Virus record (IMG/VR): IMGVR_UViG_3300022208_000010 | Coordinates: 1 to 40,887 of that record | Reading direction: 5' to 3' (one strand) | Length of the DNA stretch: 40,887 nucleotides | Source: a virus | In this document: positions 2,638 to 36,322 of the stretch, one piece after another | Numbering within the stretch: position 1 is the first letter of the stretch | Layout: every line of letters begins with the position of its first letter | The notes under the pieces: generated by a model | The model's input: the letters and a program-made list of their open reading frames with translations, nothing else | Databases searched by the model: none | Told to the model about the DNA's origin: nothing | Program-made: the position numbers and the translations under genes

Positions 2638-2976
2638 ATGGAAGAAAAGAAGAAAATAAGCCGCTCAGACTTTATAAAAGAGCTGGAAGCCTGCTATTTG
2701 TGGAAGAGAGAAGACGGAAAAACATTTTCCATATCTCAGGAAAAAGTTTTTATTGACCTTGCCATGCTGCACGGCGCCGAAATGGTAATAGAAAATTGGA
2801 TGATCTTTCAGGAGCATTTCAAGGGACAGCACCCGCACGCTTTCGTGGAATGGTTCGAAGCTGTCAAACCTTATGAAAATGACGATATGAACGCACTTCC
2901 AGAGCGTAATCATGAATTTGATAAAATGCCCTGGAAGCGAAAAGCGGAAATTTACAACAATATTGACATTCACTGA
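2638..2976 (+). CDS. Hypothetical phage protein on the opposite strand of the lysis region
   Basis: This 112-aa protein is mainly helical and charged (MEEKKKISRSDFIKELEACY), with aromatic-rich middle and end (ENWMIFQEHFKG, HPHAFVEWFEAVKPY, MPWKRKAEIYNN). I recognise no family. It is the only plus-strand gene between 34 and 5335, has its own promoter, and its likely transcript begins at the ATG. Its end overlaps the stop of the convergent lipoprotein gene by 7 bases. A separately transcribed gene pointing against a lysis operon is typical of genes expressed in the lysogen, so a role in lysogeny or host conversion is plausible but unproven. Confidence 0.6.
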   Translation: MEEKKKISRSDFIKELEACYLWKREDGKTFSISQEKVFIDLAMLHGAEMVIENWMIFQEHFKGQHPHAFVEWFEAVKPYENDDMNALPERNHEFDKMPWKRKAEIYNNIDIH

Positions 2977-3272
2977 CTAGGATATGGATCCGGTATTCTT
3001 TTTAAGATCTCTTCCGCCAACCTGTTTCTTTCTGCTTCATCAATTTCGCCAACAATCCACAGCATATCAACAATATATAGCTCTAAACGCGCCGAATAGA
3101 TACCCAGCGCCACCATATTCGAAACAGCGGCTTTGTAAGAGTCAGAGCCTTCCAATCGCTCCAAAACAGGCTTTTCAGGCATAGGATCAAATTGATAGCT
3201 TGAAACCTCTGGACAGCTTTTACAGCCAGCCACAGCCAATATAACAAATAATAGAAAATAAACCCTTTTCAT
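2970..3272 (-). CDS. Small lipoprotein, possible outer-membrane spanin
   Basis: This 100-aa protein has a lipoprotein signal: MKRVYFLLFVILAVAGC, with lipobox AVAGC giving Cys17 as the lipidated residue. The mature part begins with a second Cys and a Pro-rich stretch (FDPMPEKPVLERL), then helices. Size, lipobox and position at the end of the lysis genes fit an o-spanin (Rz1 role: fusing the outer membrane with an inner-membrane partner). GGAGGA lies three bases before the ATG. A terminator precedes it, so its level may be set apart from the genes upstream. It could equally be an unrelated lipoprotein. Confidence 0.5.
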   Translation of the reverse strand: MKRVYFLLFVILAVAGCKSCPEVSSYQFDPMPEKPVLERLEGSDSYKAAVSNMVALGIYSARLELYIVDMLWIVGEIDEAERNRLAEEILKRIPDPYPSQ

Positions 3273-3285
3273 ACATCCTCCGAAT

Positions 3286-3318
3286 AAAAAACCGCCCCGG
3301 AAGAATTACCGGCGGCGG
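3286..3318 (-). terminator. Intrinsic terminator inside the lysis cassette
   Basis: On the minus strand a GC-rich stem (CCGCCGCCGG / CCGGGGCGG, 8-base loop TAATTCTT) is followed by TTTTTT. It lies after the 3344-3667 gene and just before the ribosome-binding site of the lipoprotein gene. Confidence 0.8.
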
Positions 3319-3343
3319 CTGAATACAAATAGCTCAAACCTGG

Positions 3344-3667
3344 CTAATGTCGGCCGGACTTAATCCGGCGTAACCTCACATTTTTACACTGATCAAACAT
3401 AACGTGATTATGGTTATTATCACTCGGACCAGTCAAAGAAAAATCAGAAAATTCCAAAAGGGGAATGATTTTTTTCCAATCATCCGGCATAATCGCCAAA
3501 CTTTCGAACAGAACCGCCGTAACAGGTTTCTGCCCTACTTCCTCCCCACTATTGAAAATACTGATTGCTGAAAATTCCCCCACGGTGTTACCCAGGGGCT
3601 GGCCTGCATATAGCGGAATCGCCAAAGCTACAAGCAGAACCATGCAAAATAACCTAGCACCTTTCAT
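3344..3667 (-). CDS. Exported protein in the lysis cassette
   Basis: This 107-aa protein has an N-terminal signal peptide (MKGARLFCMVLLVALAIPLYAG, cleavage likely after YAG). The mature part (GNTVGEFSAISIFNSGEEVG) is unlike any family I know and ends in a basic tail (VRLRRIKSGRH). AGGAGA lies six bases before the ATG. It sits between the i-spanin-like and lipoprotein genes, where its export would fit a role in envelope disruption or in protecting the envelope; this is inferred from position only. Confidence 0.55.
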   Translation of the reverse strand: MKGARLFCMVLLVALAIPLYAGQPLGNTVGEFSAISIFNSGEEVGQKPVTAVLFESLAIMPDDWKKIIPLLEFSDFSLTGPSDNNHNHVMFDQCKNVRLRRIKSGRH

Positions 3668-3697
3668 ATTGGTCTCCTGTAAATAAGTAATTAAAGC

Positions 3698-3976
3698 CTA
3701 AAGCCCATTATTAAACATGTCAATGAAAGAATTCGCCACTTCCGTCACACCATCGTCCCCAGTTGCCTGGTCAATGGTTTCCATTATCTTCTGTTCCTTC
3801 TGGGTGATATGGTCTTCGCTGACTCTGTGAATTTTCAGCTTTTCGACATTAACTTCAAACATTTGAATTTTCTGTTCTGCCGCTTTCGCCCTCTTTGCAG
3901 TAGATGATAGCCGTTTAATTAAAATTCCACAAATTGAAACCAGAATGGCAACAGCCGCGATTAAGTAACCGGTCAT
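3698..3976 (-). CDS. i-spanin-like inner-membrane coiled-coil protein
   Basis: This 92-aa protein has an N-terminal transmembrane segment (TGYLIAAVAILVSICGILI, residues 2-20) followed by a charged, coiled-coil-like region (STAKRAKAAEQKIQMFEVNV) and a short C-terminal helix. This is the layout of i-spanins (Rz): anchored in the inner membrane and spanning the periplasm to meet a lipoprotein partner. Its ATG overlaps the stop of the holin-like gene by four bases (ATGA). The likely partner is the lipoprotein at 2970-3272, although a further gene and a terminator lie between them, which is unusual for Rz/Rz1. Confidence 0.5.
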   Translation of the reverse strand: MTGYLIAAVAILVSICGILIKRLSSTAKRAKAAEQKIQMFEVNVEKLKIHRVSEDHITQKEQKIMETIDQATGDDGVTEVANSFIDMFNNGL

Positions 3977-11363: not shown

Positions 11364-11393
11364 TTGACGAACAATAATACATGTATTATTGTT
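11364..11393 (+). promoter_or_regulatory. Moron promoter overlapped by a 24-bp perfect palindrome
   Basis: TTGACG (11364-11369), 17 bases, TATTGT (11387-11392). Positions 11370-11393 form a perfect 24-bp palindrome centred on ACATGT, with core AATACATGTATT (11376-11387). The same core lies in the promoter at 32857, and a near match lies at 35474. Confidence 0.7.
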
Positions 11394-21941: not shown

Positions 21942-23456
21942 CTAAAACAAGAATTTATACAGTGCCGCCACAATCCGCAGCGCCTTGGCTTCGTCGTCGA
22001 TCATTTCGGCATCGATCCGGCTGTTGTTGGTGGCGTTGATTTCGGCGGAAATAGTCGCTTTCACATCAGCGGGATTTTTTGTCCACCCCTCGGAAGTCCA
22101 GAAATCCACAAGCGCCGAAAGGTCGCTGACAACTTTTTTCGGTTTAATCACATAGGGTTTCGCCGTTATGGCGTCGTCAGAGGTCAGCATGCCGCGGATA
22201 TAGGGTTCATTGTTAAAAACGTTCTCTATATCATAAATCTTCTGCTGGCGCAGACTCACGGAAACGGTGTCAAACCACTCTTCCGTTGACGCTCCGACAG
22301 CATTGGTCCGGTAGCTGGTCGCCAGATCTCCAACCCGCAGCTCACCGGCCACGCTTTTGAAATATCCCATACCGGCGCGGAAAAGGGCGTCGTTTTTCGC
22401 ATAGGACAGATCGCCCACACTGGAATCGTGGGGGATTCCGGTGGAAAGCGTTTTAAAAGGCCGTCCGGGGTCAAACACATTCGACCACATCACAAGCCCC
22501 ATGACGGCGGCCTGCAGCTCCCAGTTGGGAGACAGGGAACGGGCGTCCCACACGGGGCTGATTCCCTCGCTGTTGATGGTAGCCGGAACAGCAAAGGCGC
22601 CGGCGTAATCTTCTTTCACGTACCCCACAAAAGAGTTAAAAGGCCGTTTAATGGAAGGATCTTTCCGAAGGTCCCACGCGGCTTTGTAATAACCCAGATT
22701 CGTCGAATCATTGTAAGGGTTGGAAATACAGGTATAAAACCGATCTCCCAGCTTGTCGGCGCTTTCCGAATCAAAGAAGACATCTTCCGTGTCCGTCGCT
22801 CCGGCTCCGCTGGTAAGGTATCCGCCGCTTCCGGGAAGCGATACAGTCATCCCTTCGGGGTTCTGTGCTTCCTGGGTCTGTCCGCTGGGGTTAAGAGCCA
22901 GCTTGATCTGGTTTCCGTTCAGCCCGGCTGTTTTCGCTGTCAGCGTCACAGTACCGGAAGCATTCACAGCCGTGACCAGTCCGTTCGCGTTTGCCGTAAT
23001 AGCGGTGACAAGAGCATCACCCGCCTCTGTCGGTGTGGCTCCGGAGGCAACAGTAACGGGAATCAAGTCCCCGCCAATACTGAAATACCAGGTTCCGCCG
23101 GAAGTGGTATTGGTGGCGAAAATAATGGTTCCGCTGGCTTTGACGGCCGCGCCCGGTTCGGGAATGGGAACCCACCACATATTGTCGTAAAATCCGCCCA
23201 GGATACCGAAAACCCAGAGCGCCTGTCTGTGCGCTTCGGAACCGAACCCGGCCTTATCGGCCACATCGTCAGCCGTAAAAACCTGAACCGGTTCATAATC
23301 GGTAATTCCGGCAATCTTCGCCTGGTCATACTGCCCGACGATCAAACCGATAGGGGGGAGATTCCCGGCGCTGACGCTTCGGCGGACCCCCTGCAATTCA
23401 ATAAAAACCTGAGACGCCCGACTCGCGGGGTTCACGGTGTTAAAAGCAATCGCCAT
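21942..23456 (-). CDS. Contractile tail sheath protein
   Basis: This 504-aa protein matches the Mu gpL-type sheath: NPASRASQVFIELQGVRRSV at the start, PPIGLIVGQYDQAK, a central region with GDRFYTCISNPYNDSTNLGY and NSFVGYVKEDYAG, and the C-terminal block YIRGMLTSDDAITAKPYVIK ... INATNNSRIDAEMIDDEAK. It makes the contractile outer tail layer and shows that the virion is a myovirus. Confidence 0.9.
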   Translation of the reverse strand: MAIAFNTVNPASRASQVFIELQGVRRSVSAGNLPPIGLIVGQYDQAKIAGITDYEPVQVFTADDVADKAGFGSEAHRQALWVFGILGGFYDNMWWVPIPEPGAAVKASGTIIFATNTTSGGTWYFSIGGDLIPVTVASGATPTEAGDALVTAITANANGLVTAVNASGTVTLTAKTAGLNGNQIKLALNPSGQTQEAQNPEGMTVSLPGSGGYLTSGAGATDTEDVFFDSESADKLGDRFYTCISNPYNDSTNLGYYKAAWDLRKDPSIKRPFNSFVGYVKEDYAGAFAVPATINSEGISPVWDARSLSPNWELQAAVMGLVMWSNVFDPGRPFKTLSTGIPHDSSVGDLSYAKNDALFRAGMGYFKSVAGELRVGDLATSYRTNAVGASTEEWFDTVSVSLRQQKIYDIENVFNNEPYIRGMLTSDDAITAKPYVIKPKKVVSDLSALVDFWTSEGWTKNPADVKATISAEINATNNSRIDAEMIDDEAKALRIVAALYKFLF

Positions 23457-30747: not shown

Positions 30748-31064
30748 TAAAAACCGCCCCTTTCATTTCCGCGAAAATTAACGGAAACAGCACGGGTTCC
30801 GCCACCATTCCCGGACTTGCATTCAAGCGCCTTCATCCAGACAGCCAGAATGCTTTCAATCTTGTCAATTTCGGCGCTCTCGACCTTTTGGCGCCCCTGT
30901 GTTGTATCTTTGTCATAAAGTTTTAATGTAGCTCTTTCTAGCTGATCCATATAAAAATCAACTTTTTCCTGAATCTGTTCGAGAGTATACAACTTGCAAA
31001 TGGTCTGCCAATTAAGAGAACGGCTCATATAAACCATTATGGGTGTAATGTCTCTACCGGTCAA
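30747..31064 (-). CDS. Head-tail connector accessory (gpW/DUF6148-like)
   Basis: This protein of up to 105 aa (ATG at 31028 gives 93 aa) has a helical hairpin YTLEQIQEKVDFYMDQLERA and EIDKIESILAVWMKALECKS, then a Gly/Arg-rich tail. In lambda a small gpW gene lies at this place before the portal. The start is uncertain because no good ribosome-binding site is seen. Its stop overlaps the portal start. Confidence 0.5.
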   Translation of the reverse strand: MTGRDITPIMVYMSRSLNWQTICKLYTLEQIQEKVDFYMDQLERATLKLYDKDTTQGRQKVESAEIDKIESILAVWMKALECKSGNGGGTRAVSVNFRGNERGGF

Positions 31065-31157
31065 GACCGGAAAATTTCATATTTTATCAATTATTTTCCA
31101 ATTTAACCTTGTGAATGCCTGCAAGGCTACAACAATGCAAAGCGAAGAGAGAAAAAG

Positions 31158-31186
31158 TTGACATCATAATAAAAAATGTTTAGCAT
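31158..31186 (+). promoter_or_regulatory. Promoter of the antirepressor transcript
   Basis: TTGACA (31158-31163), 17 bases, TAGCAT (31181-31186). Transcription should begin near 31193, leaving about 130 bases of leader before the antirepressor start codon. Confidence 0.65.
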
Positions 31187-31243
31187 TATTTTAGGCCGTT
31201 GGCCAGCTCATTTCACGGTGAGTAAATAATTCAGGGTAAGAAG

Positions 31244-31325
31244 TCCTCCGTGGCTTCCTTGCCTGTATTGGTTTTCCTGAATGGCCTATACAGGGCGTGA
31301 CAGGGAAGCTTCGGAGGATTTTTTT
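31244..31325 (+). promoter_or_regulatory. Antirepressor leader: terminator hairpin that sequesters the ribosome-binding site
   Basis: The arms 31244-31268 and 31288-31318 pair: TCCTCCG with CGGAGGA, GCTTCC with GGGAAGC, and CCTGTAT with ATACAGG, about 24 pairs with a 6-base bulge and a 19-base loop. The 3' arm holds the Shine-Dalgarno GGAGGA (31313-31318). The hairpin is followed by seven T and then directly by the ATG (31326). It is a terminator and a translation block in one. Confidence 0.75.
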
Positions 31326-32036
31326 ATGAAAGAACTTATTAAAATTGAAAACAGAAACGGTATTGAAACTGTAAACGCCAGAGAATTACACAATTTTCTT
31401 GGTGTTGGTAGAGACTTCTCAAACTGGATCAAAAACAGAATTGAAAAATTTAATTTTATTGAAGGTGAAGATTTTATAACAACGCTCGCCAAAACTGGCG
31501 AACGTCAAAATGTTGTTATGAAAGATTATTACATTACCTTTGACATGGCAAAAGAACTTTCCATGGTCGAAAACAACGACCGCGGCCGGGAGGCACGCCG
31601 TTATTTTATAGAAGTCGAAAAAAGAGCCCGCCAGATTTCAACCCCGAAACTTTCCGATGATGAACTAGTTCTGCAGGCCTTACTCATTCAAAAAGACAAA
31701 ATCACTAGACTGGAAAAGAAAATTGAACAGGACCGTGACAAGGTTCAATTTTTTCACGACGTAACAGGCAGCCGCGACGCCATAGAAATGTCAAAGGTCG
31801 CAAAAATAATTGACTGTGGAATGGGCCGCAACCAGTTAATGGAATTCTTGAGAAAAAACGGGGTCCTCAGAAACAACAACGAACCTTATCAGAAATACGT
31901 CGATCAGCGGTGGTTCAGGGTTATTGAACAAAAATATGAAGCCCAGCCAGGGGAAACAAAAATCAGCATAAAAACACTGGTTTACCAAAAAGGAATTGAC
32001 GGAATTTTAAAACTGATCAACAAAAATAGAATTTAG
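31326..32036 (+). CDS. AntA/KilAC antirepressor
   Basis: This 236-aa protein has an AntA/AntB N-terminal domain (about 5-75: NARELHNFLGVGRDFSNWIK, GEDFITTLAKTGE, KDYYITFDMAKELSM), the conserved REARRYFIEVEKRA linker, a coiled coil (about 122-140) and a KilAC domain (about 145-205: MSKVAKIIDCGMGRNQLMEF, YVDQRWFRVIEQKY). Antirepressors of this group bind phage repressors and trigger lytic growth. The leader hairpin should keep it silent until released. It points against the surrounding late genes, and its stop overlaps the end of the convergent 32033 gene. Own promoter and terminator. Confidence 0.85.
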   Translation: MKELIKIENRNGIETVNARELHNFLGVGRDFSNWIKNRIEKFNFIEGEDFITTLAKTGERQNVVMKDYYITFDMAKELSMVENNDRGREARRYFIEVEKRARQISTPKLSDDELVLQALLIQKDKITRLEKKIEQDRDKVQFFHDVTGSRDAIEMSKVAKIIDCGMGRNQLMEFLRKNGVLRNNNEPYQKYVDQRWFRVIEQKYEAQPGETKISIKTLVYQKGIDGILKLINKNRI

Positions 32037-32803
32037 CGAATATCTCGCAAAGCCTCTTCGGCCTTCCGGTTGAATTTCCGCTTAATCTTATCGGGAGTCA
32101 TATTTTTAACAGCCCTTTTAAAATGGGGCTGTTTTTTTGTTCTGGTCACAGTGGCGTCCAGGTTTCTGATTTTCCGGAAAATACTTCCCACCAGCTTATA
32201 GATTCCCAACAGCTGATCTTTACCAATAAAATAAAATGGTTTTCTCGGGTCTCCAACCATACGGGAATAGCCGCTTTTTTTCTGGCCGTACAAAACGCCG
32301 AATCTCTGGCTGGCGGTCAATCCGTCCCGCCGAGTTCCCAGTTCCCGGCCTCCGACTCTCAGCGTCTGGGTGTCCCCTTTCGTCAACCGATTCGGTCCTG
32401 AAATCGGACGGTCTTCGCTTTTTCCTGTTCTGGCCGTGTTCAGAGGAACGGGAACTTTCCCTTTCGTCTGCGGGTTTCCCCTGTTCGTTGATCCCTCTTC
32501 CAGATCCGCCAGATAATGATCGACGCCGCCCTTCATTTTTCGCACGCCTATAATGGCATTGATTTTTTTTAAAAGCCTGGGCTCTCCGGATTTTCTCGTC
32601 GGGGTCGCTCTGAGAATTTGAACCGATCCCAGCGTGAATTTTGTTTTAATCCGCTGACTTCTCTGTAAACGCCTTTTATAATCGCCTTCCACATCGGCCG
32701 CCGCATCGTTCACAGTTTCAGCCGCAACAATTTGCAGCATATTGGCGCGCTTTCCCAGCTGGTAGATAAATTTTTCTGTTTGTATTTGAAGGCGAATACT
32801 CAT
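32033..32803 (-). CDS. Probable HK97 gp10-like virion morphogenesis protein
   Basis: This 256-aa basic protein starts with a helix (TEKFIYQLGKRANMLQIVAA) and AADVEGDYKRRLQR, and has a long Gly/Arg-rich middle (GEPRLLKKINAIIGVRKMKG, GLTASQRFGVLYGQKKSGYS) of the kind seen in tail-completion or connector proteins (gp10, Mu gpG-like). It lies apart from its expected neighbours, before the gpW-like gene. No ribosome-binding site precedes the ATG, and a weak -10 box eight bases upstream suggests a leaderless mRNA. Function is inferred. Confidence 0.4.
   Translation of the reverse strand: MSIRLQIQTEKFIYQLGKRANMLQIVAAETVNDAAADVEGDYKRRLQRSQRIKTKFTLGSVQILRATPTRKSGEPRLLKKINAIIGVRKMKGGVDHYLADLEEGSTNRGNPQTKGKVPVPLNTARTGKSEDRPISGPNRLTKGDTQTLRVGGRELGTRRDGLTASQRFGVLYGQKKSGYSRMVGDPRKPFYFIGKDQLLGIYKLVGSIFRKIRNLDATVTRTKKQPHFKRAVKNMTPDKIKRKFNRKAEEALRDIR
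32108..32138 (+). terminator. Antirepressor terminator placed inside the convergent gene
   Basis: AACAGCCC - TTTTAAAATG - GGGCTGTT and a T-run on the plus strand, 72 bases past the antirepressor stop and inside the coding part of the minus-strand 32033-32803 gene. Confidence 0.7.
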
Positions 32804-32856: not shown

Positions 32857-32885
32857 TTGCAATACCAATACATGTATTATATAAT
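32857..32885 (+). promoter_or_regulatory. Strong promoter with palindromic operator in the spacer
   Basis: TTGCAA (32857-32862), 17 bases, perfect TATAAT (32880-32885). The perfect palindrome AATACATGTATT (32867-32878) fills the spacer; it is the core of the 24-bp palindrome at 11370. Confidence 0.75.
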
Positions 32886-32915
32886 CAAATTAGAAGTTAA
32901 AGAAAGGAGAACATT

Positions 32916-33131
32916 ATGGAAAACAATTTTGTAATAGGAAAAACATACGAAACACGGTCAATCTGTGATCATAACTGCAGATTCAAAGCGACGGTTCTGA
33001 AAAAAACGGCCAAAACTGTCACCGTTGAAACAATGGACGGCGTAAAACGCTGTAAAGTCCATGAACACGACGGCGAACAGTTTATTTACTTATTGTGTCA
33101 ATATTCCATGGCTCCCATTATGAGAGCTTAA
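32916..33131 (+). CDS. 71-aa conserved small protein with SICD motif
   Basis: This 71-aa protein reads ENNFVIGKTYETRSICDHNC, KTAKTVTVETMDG, and ends QYSMAPIMRA. The pattern (RSICD, TAKTVT, YSMAPI-RA) belongs to a widespread uncharacterised domain, also found at the ends of some mobile-element proteins. It has a strong own promoter with operator, AAAGGAG nine bases before the ATG, and a terminator. Placed opposite to late genes, it is likely expressed apart from them, perhaps under repressor control. Function unknown. Confidence 0.7.
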   Translation: MENNFVIGKTYETRSICDHNCRFKATVLKKTAKTVTVETMDGVKRCKVHEHDGEQFIYLLCQYSMAPIMRA

Positions 33132-33136
33132 TTTTA

Positions 33137-33231
33137 TTGATAATTTCCGATCATTCGGTTATTATCAATTGTTGTCTGATTGAGAGGCTCAGACACTCAG
33201 CCCCGCCCCAGCCAACCGGCTGGGGTTTTTT
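33137..33231 (+). terminator. Structured 3' end and terminator of the 71-aa gene
   Basis: Two hairpins, TTGATAAT/ATTATCAA (33137-33168) and GTCTGA/TCAGAC (33174-33194), precede a strong terminator CCCCAGCC-AACC-GGCTGGGG with a T-run (33206-33231). Confidence 0.7.
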
Positions 33232-33951: not shown

Positions 33952-34717
33952 TCGTCAGGCCCTCCACAAGTAAGTCAATCTCTTCGATCCGCTCCTGCAT
34001 CCGCTCGATTTTCCTTTCCAGGTTCCTGCGCTCCCGCTCCAAAAATGAAACTTCGTCCATGCCCCTATCCATTTCGTCCTTATTTTTATTCCCGGTTTTC
34101 GGCTCAACAATGGGAACCTTCCCCGAGACGACCGCCTCGTTCCTTTTTTCAGGGTCTGAAATTTTTGTGATCCTTTCGGCAAAATGGCCGCCGGCCTCTT
34201 CTGGAATATCCATGGCATAAACACACATAATTGCCTTGGCCTGACTGTTTTTCAAAGACAGCTTACGGGAAACCAGATCATCAAAATGATGGTGTTTCTT
34301 CTGACATTCATCCAGAAGAGTGATCAAGGCTTTTCCGAATCGTTTCAAAAAAGCCGTGTGTTCCCGGTTCATCCGGATCGCATCGTCCAGAATCTCGCTG
34401 TCATAATCTTTATAGATCCCCTGTGAAATAGCTTCTTTCACAAGATCGTCAAAAATCTTCTGCCATCGCTTCCCGTGTGCGTTTCTGGTATTGGTTTCAT
34501 GGTTCACCGTAAAATCAATATGGTGTGACAGCTCATGGAGCCCCGTATAAATCGCCTGGTTATCCTCCACAAAGTTTTTATTGTGGATGATTATCTCTTT
34601 TTTTTCAGGATGATAAAGGCCGTCAATTTTCTTACTCATCTTTCCGGAAAAAATAACCGTGTAATCGGTGTGATCCGTCAGTCTGTCCAGCGTCTCTTTT
34701 AATTGGTCCTGATTCAT
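33944..34717 (-). CDS. HExxH metallopeptidase-like protein
   Basis: This 257-aa protein has a zinc site: His61-Glu62-Leu-Ser-His65 (TGLHELSHHIDF) with a likely third ligand at His81 (NAHGKRWQKIF), like SprT/M48-type or ImmA-like peptidases. The C-terminal third is a coiled coil (about 222-250: ERERRNLERKIERMQERIEE). Its ATG overlaps the XRE gene by four bases. ImmA-type peptidases encoded beside an XRE repressor cleave it after a signal (ICEBs1 ImmR/ImmA). The pairing suggests such a switch here; a late function (SprT-like) cannot be excluded. Confidence 0.65.
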   Translation of the reverse strand: MNQDQLKETLDRLTDHTDYTVIFSGKMSKKIDGLYHPEKKEIIIHNKNFVEDNQAIYTGLHELSHHIDFTVNHETNTRNAHGKRWQKIFDDLVKEAISQGIYKDYDSEILDDAIRMNREHTAFLKRFGKALITLLDECQKKHHHFDDLVSRKLSLKNSQAKAIMCVYAMDIPEEAGGHFAERITKISDPEKRNEAVVSGKVPIVEPKTGNKNKDEMDRGMDEVSFLERERRNLERKIERMQERIEEIDLLVEGLTND

Positions 34718-34902
34718 TTTTTAGCCTCCGCAATCAAAGACTGTTCAACCCTTTTCAACCTGCGGACATTCCGCTCTTTTATCTGCCGGTGCCCCTGCTC
34801 CCAGCTTCTGACAGCCGGAACGCTCACGTCCATCAAGTCGGCCAGCTGCTCCTGCGTCAATAAATACCGAATTCGAAATTGTCTTATCTCTTCGCCCGTC
34901 AT
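34714..34902 (-). CDS. Small XRE-family (Cro/CI-type) regulator
   Basis: This 62-aa protein is nearly all helix-turn-helix: TGEEIRQFRIRYLLTQEQLA, then DLMDVSVPAVRSWEQGHRQI, the classic XRE recognition helix. It has no dimerisation or peptidase-sensitive domain, so it is more Cro-like than CI-like. It overlaps the peptidase gene downstream (ATGA) and the 35405 gene upstream. It is a candidate binder of the AATACATGTATT sites. Confidence 0.75.
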   Translation of the reverse strand: MTGEEIRQFRIRYLLTQEQLADLMDVSVPAVRSWEQGHRQIKERNVRRLKRVEQSLIAEAKK

Positions 34903-35495: not shown

Positions 35496-35704
35496 GACTG
35501 TTTTATCTTTTCCAGAATCTTTTTCAACTCTTCGTTATCCGTTCCGGATTCATCCAGAATTTTAAAAAATTCAAAAGCGTAAACATGTAGCCGCTCATAA
35601 AACTTTCTGTCTTCTGTCGGTTCATAAACCTTAATAAAAACATTCAGCTGTCCATCGTCCAATAAGTCGATGGTATAAACATGGGTCGTCTTGTTTTTTG
35701 TCAA
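35492..35704 (-). CDS. Small phage protein downstream of the XRE regulator
   Basis: This protein is about 70 aa (TKNKTTHVYTIDLLDDGQLN, FYERLHVYAFEFFKILDESG, ending ELKKILEKIKQS). I take TTG 35704 as the start because AAGGAGGA precedes it and it overlaps the previous stop by four bases (TTGA); the longer ATG frame has no site. No family. Confidence 0.5.
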   Translation of the reverse strand: MTKNKTTHVYTIDLLDDGQLNVFIKVYEPTEDRKFYERLHVYAFEFFKILDESGTDNEELKKILEKIKQS

Positions 35705-36120
35705 GATTCCTCCTTTTCCACAAGACAAAGGACTGGATTCATCCCCAGGCCGTCCGCCAACTTCTGGACCATTTCAAAACTAATCATTTTATCATCATTC
35801 AAAATCATGGCCGCCGACGTTTGGGAAATCCCGCAACGGCTCGCAAATTCAACCTGAGTCATACCTGACCGTCTGAATTCGTCTTTCACTTCCATATAAA
35901 AATCATTCAGGAATTCAGGGACTTCCACCCTCGATTTTTTTCTGGCTGCTTTGGTTAAAATTAAATCTCGGATCTCGGAAACCTTTTCCGACTCAATAAA
36001 AACACGGCCGTCTTCCGACCGCTCAATATTCGCGCCAACCTGAACAGCCCTATAACGGCATCCCGGCAGGCTTAAACCCAATTCATCGGCCAGATCAGCC
36101 AGAAAAACAATATCACTCAC
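35701..36120 (-). CDS. XRE-type regulator with C-terminal HTH
   Basis: This 139-aa protein has an N-terminal part of unknown type (VSDIVFLADLADELGLSLPG) and a C-terminal helix-turn-helix (about 95-135): RRSGMTQVEFASRCGISQTS, AAMILNDDKMISFEMVQKLA, with a long preceding helix. I start at GTG 36120, which overlaps the stop of the upstream Cys-rich gene (GTGAGTGA); longer frames run through that gene. HTH at the C-terminus is like HigA or MqsA-type regulators and some repressors. Candidate phage repressor. Confidence 0.65.
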   Translation of the reverse strand: MSDIVFLADLADELGLSLPGCRYRAVQVGANIERSEDGRVFIESEKVSEIRDLILTKAARKKSRVEVPEFLNDFYMEVKDEFRRSGMTQVEFASRCGISQTSAAMILNDDKMISFEMVQKLADGLGMNPVLCLVEKEES

Positions 36121-36322
36121 TTTCGTTCTCAGCCTTCCCCAAAATACCGCGACAAAGCGGATCATCACAATAAAGCGCGTCTCTCCGGTATATCGATTTT
36201 CGCCCGCACTTCTTGCACCTGTAAAAAAACATTTCCTGGCATTCCCTCGTTTTACAATCGGAACCCAAACATGGCAATTCGTGAAAAACACTGCAACAAA
36301 TAACCGGCTTTTTATTTTCCAT
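36113..36322 (-). CDS. Small zinc-ribbon-like protein
   Basis: This 69-aa protein has many Cys: ICCSVFHELPCLGSDCKTRE and CKKCGRKS...YCDDPLCRG, which suggests two zinc sites. I start at ATG 36322, overlapping the methyltransferase end by 11 bases; an ATG at 36331 is also possible. Function unknown, perhaps a partner of the methyltransferase. Confidence 0.6.
   Translation of the reverse strand: MENKKPVICCSVFHELPCLGSDCKTRECQEMFFYRCKKCGRKSIYRRDALYCDDPLCRGILGKAENESE

Follow-up and report, generated by a model that had tools for sequence, protein, structure and literature searches.

The antirepressor gene ant of this phage is preceded by a leader that probably acts as a brake in cis. It would hold Ant synthesis very low, mainly by occlusion of the Shine-Dalgarno (SD) sequence and plausibly also by attenuation, with a leaky open fraction. 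The DNA analysed (the window, 40,887 nucleotides) is the whole of virus record IMGVR_UViG_3300022208_000010 and belongs to a temperate, contractile-tailed phage; tail sheath, integrase, terminase and portal were found as markers. Prophage induction is decided by antirepressors, and to our knowledge RNA-level control of antirepressors is known only from a few model phages (P1, P22, Gifsy-1). The elements of the ant region are as follows (positions in the window).

31158 to 31186, plus strand: promoter-like site TTGACA-17-TAGCAT, 10/12 in a sigma-70-like consensus scan, predicted start at about 31193
31193 to 31325, plus strand: predicted ant leader of about 133 nt, deduced from the positions of promoter-like site and start codon
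31194 to 31223, plus strand: two small leader hairpins (31194-31204 and 31206-31223) in MFE folds, present in both conformations
31234 to 31264, plus strand: hairpin I of the predicted open conformation A, 12 pairs, from growing-transcript and span-limited folds, z -2.6
31270 to 31310, plus strand: hairpin II of the predicted open conformation A, from growing-transcript and span-limited folds, z -4.2
31238 to 31324, plus strand: long hairpin of the predicted closed conformation B, 34 pairs, the whole SD paired, terminator-like, from MFE folding, d 25.9
31313 to 31318, plus strand: SD sequence GGAGGA, in the 3' arm of the basal stem, read from the sequence
31319 to 31325, plus strand: T7 tract, read from the sequence, terminator-type U-tract and SD-ATG spacer at once
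31326 to 32036, plus strand: ant, 236 aa, AntA (PF08346) plus ANT/KilAC (PF03374) antirepressor by Pfam and PHROG
32108 to 32138, plus strand: intrinsic-terminator-like site downstream of ant, d = 17.9, closing the one-gene cassette

The ant product matched the AntA domain with 2.1e-25 and the ANT/KilAC domain with 3.4e-23, both over the Pfam cut-offs, and PHROG 63 (anti-repressor Ant) with 5.6e-44. Thus the original prediction, which had called the gene a KilAC antirepressor, was confirmed, with AntA as the accompanying domain. The nearest relatives of ant among phage records were at most 48% identical. As a member of this family Ant would be expected to inactivate the phage repressor, and the HTH proteins encoded at 34714-34902 and 35701-36291 are possible targets. 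An in-frame ATG at 31281, located in the hairpin loop, was considered as the start codon and dismissed because it is without an SD and the relatives align from 31326.

On the plus strand ant is flanked by leftward genes, with a 4-bp overlap between ant and the end of a tail-like gene. Packaging and head genes run leftward, opposite to ant, and there is no rightward gene upstream of ant that could supply longer transcripts. GC content was 0.39 to 0.41 at the ant cassette compared with 0.46 to 0.51 in the greater part of the adjacent head and packaging region. The traits of a moron are found here, i.e. a single gene in opposite orientation with its own promoter-like site and terminator and a deviating base composition. 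With a promoter-like and a terminator-like site of its own, ant constitutes a moron-like one-gene cassette. Leftward transcription across this cassette would be antisense to ant. Scans with the portal, the neighbouring genes and the terminase did not uncover any phage closely related to this one.

A second plus-strand one-gene cassette is located inside the leftward region at 32857-33231. It comprises a promoter-like site at 32857, a 71-aa ORF at 32916-33131 without a PHROG match and a strong terminator at 33205 (d = 55.1). The 12-bp palindrome AATACATGTATT occurs exactly twice, at 11376-11387 and at 32867-32878, and each copy lies within a plus-strand promoter-like site, in its spacer/-10 region. 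At 11370-11393 the palindrome widens to the perfect 24-bp palindrome AACAATAATACATGTATTATTGTT. Possibly AATACATGTATT is one operator common to two small cassettes.

The promoter-like site of ant consists of TTGACA (31158-31163), a spacer of 17 nt and TAGCAT (31181-31186). At the rate of the window 0.06 sites with 10/12 matches are expected in the 261-nt gap, so that the site is no more than suggestive of a promoter. The sequence reads GGAGGA, T7 and then immediately the ATG at 31326. Here the original prediction was accurate in all its coordinates (TTGACA-17-TAGCAT, GGAGGA, seven T, ATG), and its leader of about 130 bases agrees with the approximately 133 nt predicted by us. The ORF list contained no leader ORF of at least 50 codons ending before ant, and none of the short leader ORFs, read by eye, had an SD at normal spacing. 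The apical stem CTGTAT...ATACAG at 31263-31293 resembles two LexA half-sites with a spacing far too wide for a LexA site; we presume that this is coincidence.

The long hairpin takes up the last 87 nt of the leader, with 34 predicted pairs in four runs. The two basal runs of 13 pairs (31238-31250 with 31312-31324) and 10 pairs (31252-31261 with 31301-31310) are separated by a 1x1 mismatch. Above them a 6-nt bulge is followed by 7 and 4 further pairs. The basal runs sum to 23 pairs, which bears out the hairpin of about 24 pairs proposed originally, and every base of GGAGGA is paired within the run of 13. Folding of the leader, suggested at the outset as a check, gave an MFE of -62 kcal/mol for 161 nt with the SD buried in the hairpin. 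Shuffled sequences had a mean of -40.3 kcal/mol (sd 4.05; z -5.35) and none of 200 was as low; the fold is thus not due to chance. The long hairpin was the most stable of 8160 segments of 90 nt from both strands, despite a local G+C of 0.39. Among 58 gene starts that of ant ranked highest in SD-region pairing (0.90) and lowest in upstream energy, and the predicted pairing probability of the SD was at least 0.997 across 30 to 65 °C. We consider SD occlusion in cis the best-supported step of the mechanism and infer from the folds that it would operate in cells.

Attenuation by the leader hairpin and the U-tract is plausible as a second component. The d'Aubenton-Carafa score of the 75-nt leader hairpin, a hairpin outside the size range of that score, was d = 25.9, a value between those of two nearby ordinary terminator-like sites (17.9 and 55.1). 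The termination efficiency is uncertain because the hairpin is longer than the training set of the score and because hairpin I would have to yield while the polymerase is at the U-tract. T-rich spacers between SD and ATG occur elsewhere in the phage without such a hairpin, i.e. T5 at 21942 and 29155 and T7 at 2180, and thus the T7 tract alone is no evidence of a terminator. A terminator on the minus strand was ruled out, since the complement folds but is without a U-tract. The original view that the RNA is by default terminated or untranslatable therefore stands in part: the SD is thermodynamically buried and the hairpin with its U-tract is shaped like an intrinsic terminator.

Our folds predict a bistable leader. 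A pair of local hairpins, which is mutually exclusive with the long hairpin, leaves the SD free. The loop of hairpin I, CUCCGU, holds most of the anti-SD, and hairpin II takes the upper part of the 3' arm while the SD stays free. When folding was followed on the growing transcript, the 5' arm formed hairpin I first. The energy of the whole leader was -44.7 kcal/mol in the open and -62 kcal/mol in the closed conformation, with a predicted barrier from A to B of at most 15.6 kcal/mol. As a control for the local fold, base pairs were shuffled inside the same hairpin (n = 2000). A local fold as strong was seen in 13 of these 2000 hairpins (p ~0.007), and the real long hairpin was weaker than the pair-shuffled controls (-47.2 vs a mean of -53.2). 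A strong local fold together with a weaker long hairpin is suggestive of the pattern of a two-state element. The test of the local fold is no more than suggestive because it was devised after the fold had been seen and was one of several looks.

The partition between the two conformations was modelled by a co-transcriptional Gillespie simulation, which was coarse, used our own simplified energies and had neither shift moves nor polymerase pausing. With folding fast relative to transcription the SD stem was formed in 68% (n = 40) and 85% (n = 20) of the molecules in two simulations, in which hairpin I was retained in about 25-33% and 10-15%, respectively. Most of the non-closed molecules in these fast-folding runs were trapped in hairpin I. 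With slow folding (2000 units per nt) the SD stem was reached in only 36%, and at an intermediate setting, in which the early transcript was ten times faster, 38% of 24 trajectories were closed; in both cases many molecules were in other folds. The claim that something must open the leader for lytic induction is not upheld by these simulations, which predict a minority of open molecules without a trigger. Thus a constitutive brake with a leak is possible.

We propose the following course of events. Hairpin I would fold first on the nascent RNA. Upon emergence of the 3' arm most molecules would refold into the long hairpin and bury the SD, and because U7 follows the long hairpin, part of the transcripts should also be released. 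A minority trapped in hairpins I and II would keep the SD open and give a small dose of Ant. The ratio of open to closed molecules could be shifted by transcription speed, by RNase III cutting of the long duplex, or by a ribosome or trans factor; the leaky brake may be modulated by RNase III cutting, by antisense from the leftward operon or by another factor. The analysis shows the sequence, the identity of the gene, the predicted structures and their excess stability; termination, the kinetic partition and any regulation by the ant leader are inferred. A bolder version would place the lysis-lysogeny switch in this one bistable leader: the metastable hairpin pair would let polymerase and ribosome pass, its collapse into one stem would at the same time terminate transcription and hide the SD, and folding kinetics, through transcription speed, RNase III or a trans factor, would set the dose. 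We regard this version as tentative and rather doubtful.

Several other explanations were weighed. A regulated attenuator or riboswitch-like switch, in which a protein, antisense RNA or ligand acts as specific trigger and on induction keeps the leader open for read-through and translation together, is conceivable though on balance improbable. Such a switch would agree with two mutually exclusive folds of suitable logic, with the terminator form of the leader and with the precedent of Gifsy-1 IsrK, where an RNA acting in trans opens a silent leader upstream of the antirepressor anrP (PMC4825925). Yet no Rfam family was present in the window and no aptamer was recognised, a convincing SD-bearing leader ORF was missing, and phage sites paired with the 5' arm, the loop and the 5' leader no better than with shuffled probes. 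The SD arm alone, which is GA-rich, was slightly above six shuffled controls in pairing with phage sites (-29.6 vs -27.2). A trans-acting complementary RNA from elsewhere in the phage was rejected, with duplexes no better than those of shuffled probes for three of the four leader segments. Antisense control resembling sar, with leftward transcripts or a short minus-strand RNA pairing with the leader and the hairpin being secondary, is unlikely. Indeed ant is antisense to the leftward operon, no leftward terminator was found in 31064-32033, and promoter-like sites on the minus strand lie inside ant at 31482-31453 and 31422-31393 (9/12 each). However, sites with 9/12 are common (the minus strand of the window has 109), and antisense control does not account for a hairpin stronger than any other in the genome.

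RNase III-controlled leaders are known from lambda N and T7 early RNA, and the near-perfect stem of 13 + 10 + 7 pairs has the size of an RNase III substrate. It appears quite unlikely to us that the SD is freed by cleavage of this stem and that the Ant level tracks RNase III activity. In a timing device of the T4 type, ant would be silenced by the hairpin on longer transcripts, and the mRNA fit for translation would come from a promoter inside the 5' arm. In favour of such a device are the anatomy shared with T4, where the SD also sits at the 3' foot of a long helix (PMC2988022, PMC3014915), and the same layout before other phage genes, e.g. GIY-YIG-like (L037) and XRE-like (L047) ORFs. It is very unlikely, because the 5' arm had no promoter in a consensus scan, which covers sigma-70-like sites, because the sole weak promoter match in the hairpin was GTGACA-16/17-TTTTTT (8/12) at 31297, and because a rightward gene upstream to give longer transcripts is absent. 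Finally, SD-occluding hairpins can act as RNA thermometers and the ant hairpin may be supposed to behave so. Melting on heat shock was discarded as having hardly any probability with an SD still paired at 0.997 at 65 °C.

Among the sequences compared, the long SD-burying leader, in which we see a probable leaky brake in cis, seems peculiar to this phage. AntA-type genes were gathered from viral contigs, annotated phages and bacterial genomes and their start regions were folded; the family sample comprised 119 distinct other ant starts, 79 of them with a recognisable SD. The longest SD-holding stem among the 119 had 13 counted pairs vs 23 in our phage by the same count, and thus the family does not conserve a stem of this length. 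The relatives yielded no homologous leader, the exact 24-mer around the SD had no match in viral contigs, and a distant blastn of the region against phages matched the ant coding sequence only.

RNA-level control of ant genes nevertheless recurs, by differing means. C4 antisense RNA (RF01695) was present in two ant relatives (L009, L088). Strongly structured leaders upstream of the AntA gene in L081 and L094 were C4-like by eye and below the Rfam cut-off for C4; they are possibly divergent C4 relatives. A distant AntA-type gene (L013, ORF 2878-3735) has an SD-burying hairpin of its own at 2700-2878, CCTCCTACAG...CTGTAGGAGG, with a helix of 11 pairs, a 4-nt bulge and 11 further pairs and without a U-tract; a tRNA gene at 2443-2514 lies upstream of it. 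Viral contigs were also scanned for the pattern TCCTCC, 45-75 nt, GGAGGATTTTT, up to 3 nt and ATG. There were 35 matching stretches, several of which precede real-looking ORFs with long stems. Phage ORFs in L037, L047, L036/L057, L043 and L055 are preceded by a long hairpin with the SD at its 3' base, after which a T-run and the ATG follow. Named by eye from their translations, the ORFs include a GIY-YIG endonuclease-like (L037), an XRE regulator-like (L047) and a likely tail sheath ORF (L043).

In T4 the genes e, soc, 49 and I-TevI are well-known cases of SD-sequestering helices (PMC3014915, PMC2988022). Synthesis of T4 lysozyme (e) is cut about 100-fold by such a helix (PMC3014915), and T4 late promoters bypass the 5' arm of the helix (PMC3014915, PMC2988022). 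In these genes and in Aeh1 mobE the SD likewise lies in the 3' arm of a stable helix near the start codon, and ant resembles the T4 genes in being a phage gene that is costly if expressed at the wrong time. Yet the T4 genes are located on long transcripts and the late promoter omits the 5' arm, while the promoter-like site of ant is upstream of the whole hairpin. Furthermore, the ant leader, unlike the T4 leaders, has a U-tract after the stem and an alternative local fold.

The system closest in logic is IsrK/orf45/anrP of Gifsy-1. Its promoter is followed by a leader that contains an intrinsic terminator, and the read-through mRNA, with the antirepressor anrP downstream, is translationally silent; the leader has two alternative folds and a trans-acting short RNA opens it (PMC4825925). 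There the terminator and the trapped ribosome-binding site are separate and control proceeds via the leader ORF orf45 and the short RNA, whereas in the ant leader the terminator-like stem and the trap are fused directly on the ant start and no orf45-like ORF was found. The statement in the original prediction that such an arrangement is not described was too strong, considering that SD-sequestering helices are classical in T4 and that IsrK precedes an antirepressor (PMC3014915, PMC2988022, PMC4825925). Literature searches gave no described ant attenuator beyond IsrK and C4.

In the maturation-gene leader of MS2 a transient local fold keeps the start site open before the stable closed fold forms (PMC6733600). 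This leader differs in belonging to an RNA phage, in being replicase-driven and in having no terminator. The C4 antisense RNA of P1 and P7 (RF01695) likewise lies upstream of an ant gene, whose expression it controls, but it is a separate and conserved RNA; C4 had no match at the gathering cut-off in the window and none with E <= 5 in 30900-32200. P22 sar is a trans-acting antisense transcript controlling the antirepressor, which is thus likewise held down at the RNA level, whereas the element of the ant leader is in cis. In some riboswitch expression platforms one stem serves as terminator and SD trap and blocks both transcription and translation. These share with the ant leader the overlap of trap and terminator-like stem, but the ant leader is without an aptamer or Rfam match.

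What appears to be new is the SD inside the terminator stem with the U-tract as spacer to the ATG, combined with the predicted bistability. Because the same layout is found before other phage genes, what is novel is that an antirepressor carries it and that a second fold is predicted. Precedents exist for each element (T4 e/I-TevI, P1 C4, Gifsy-1 IsrK, riboswitch terminators), and the ant leader is a striking variant of these known RNA brakes. If our reading is true, a two-state leader in cis would be a compact alternative that needs no separate regulatory RNA. SD-burying leaders are thus worth seeking before other antirepressors, of which the one in L013 already has its own SD-occluding hairpin.
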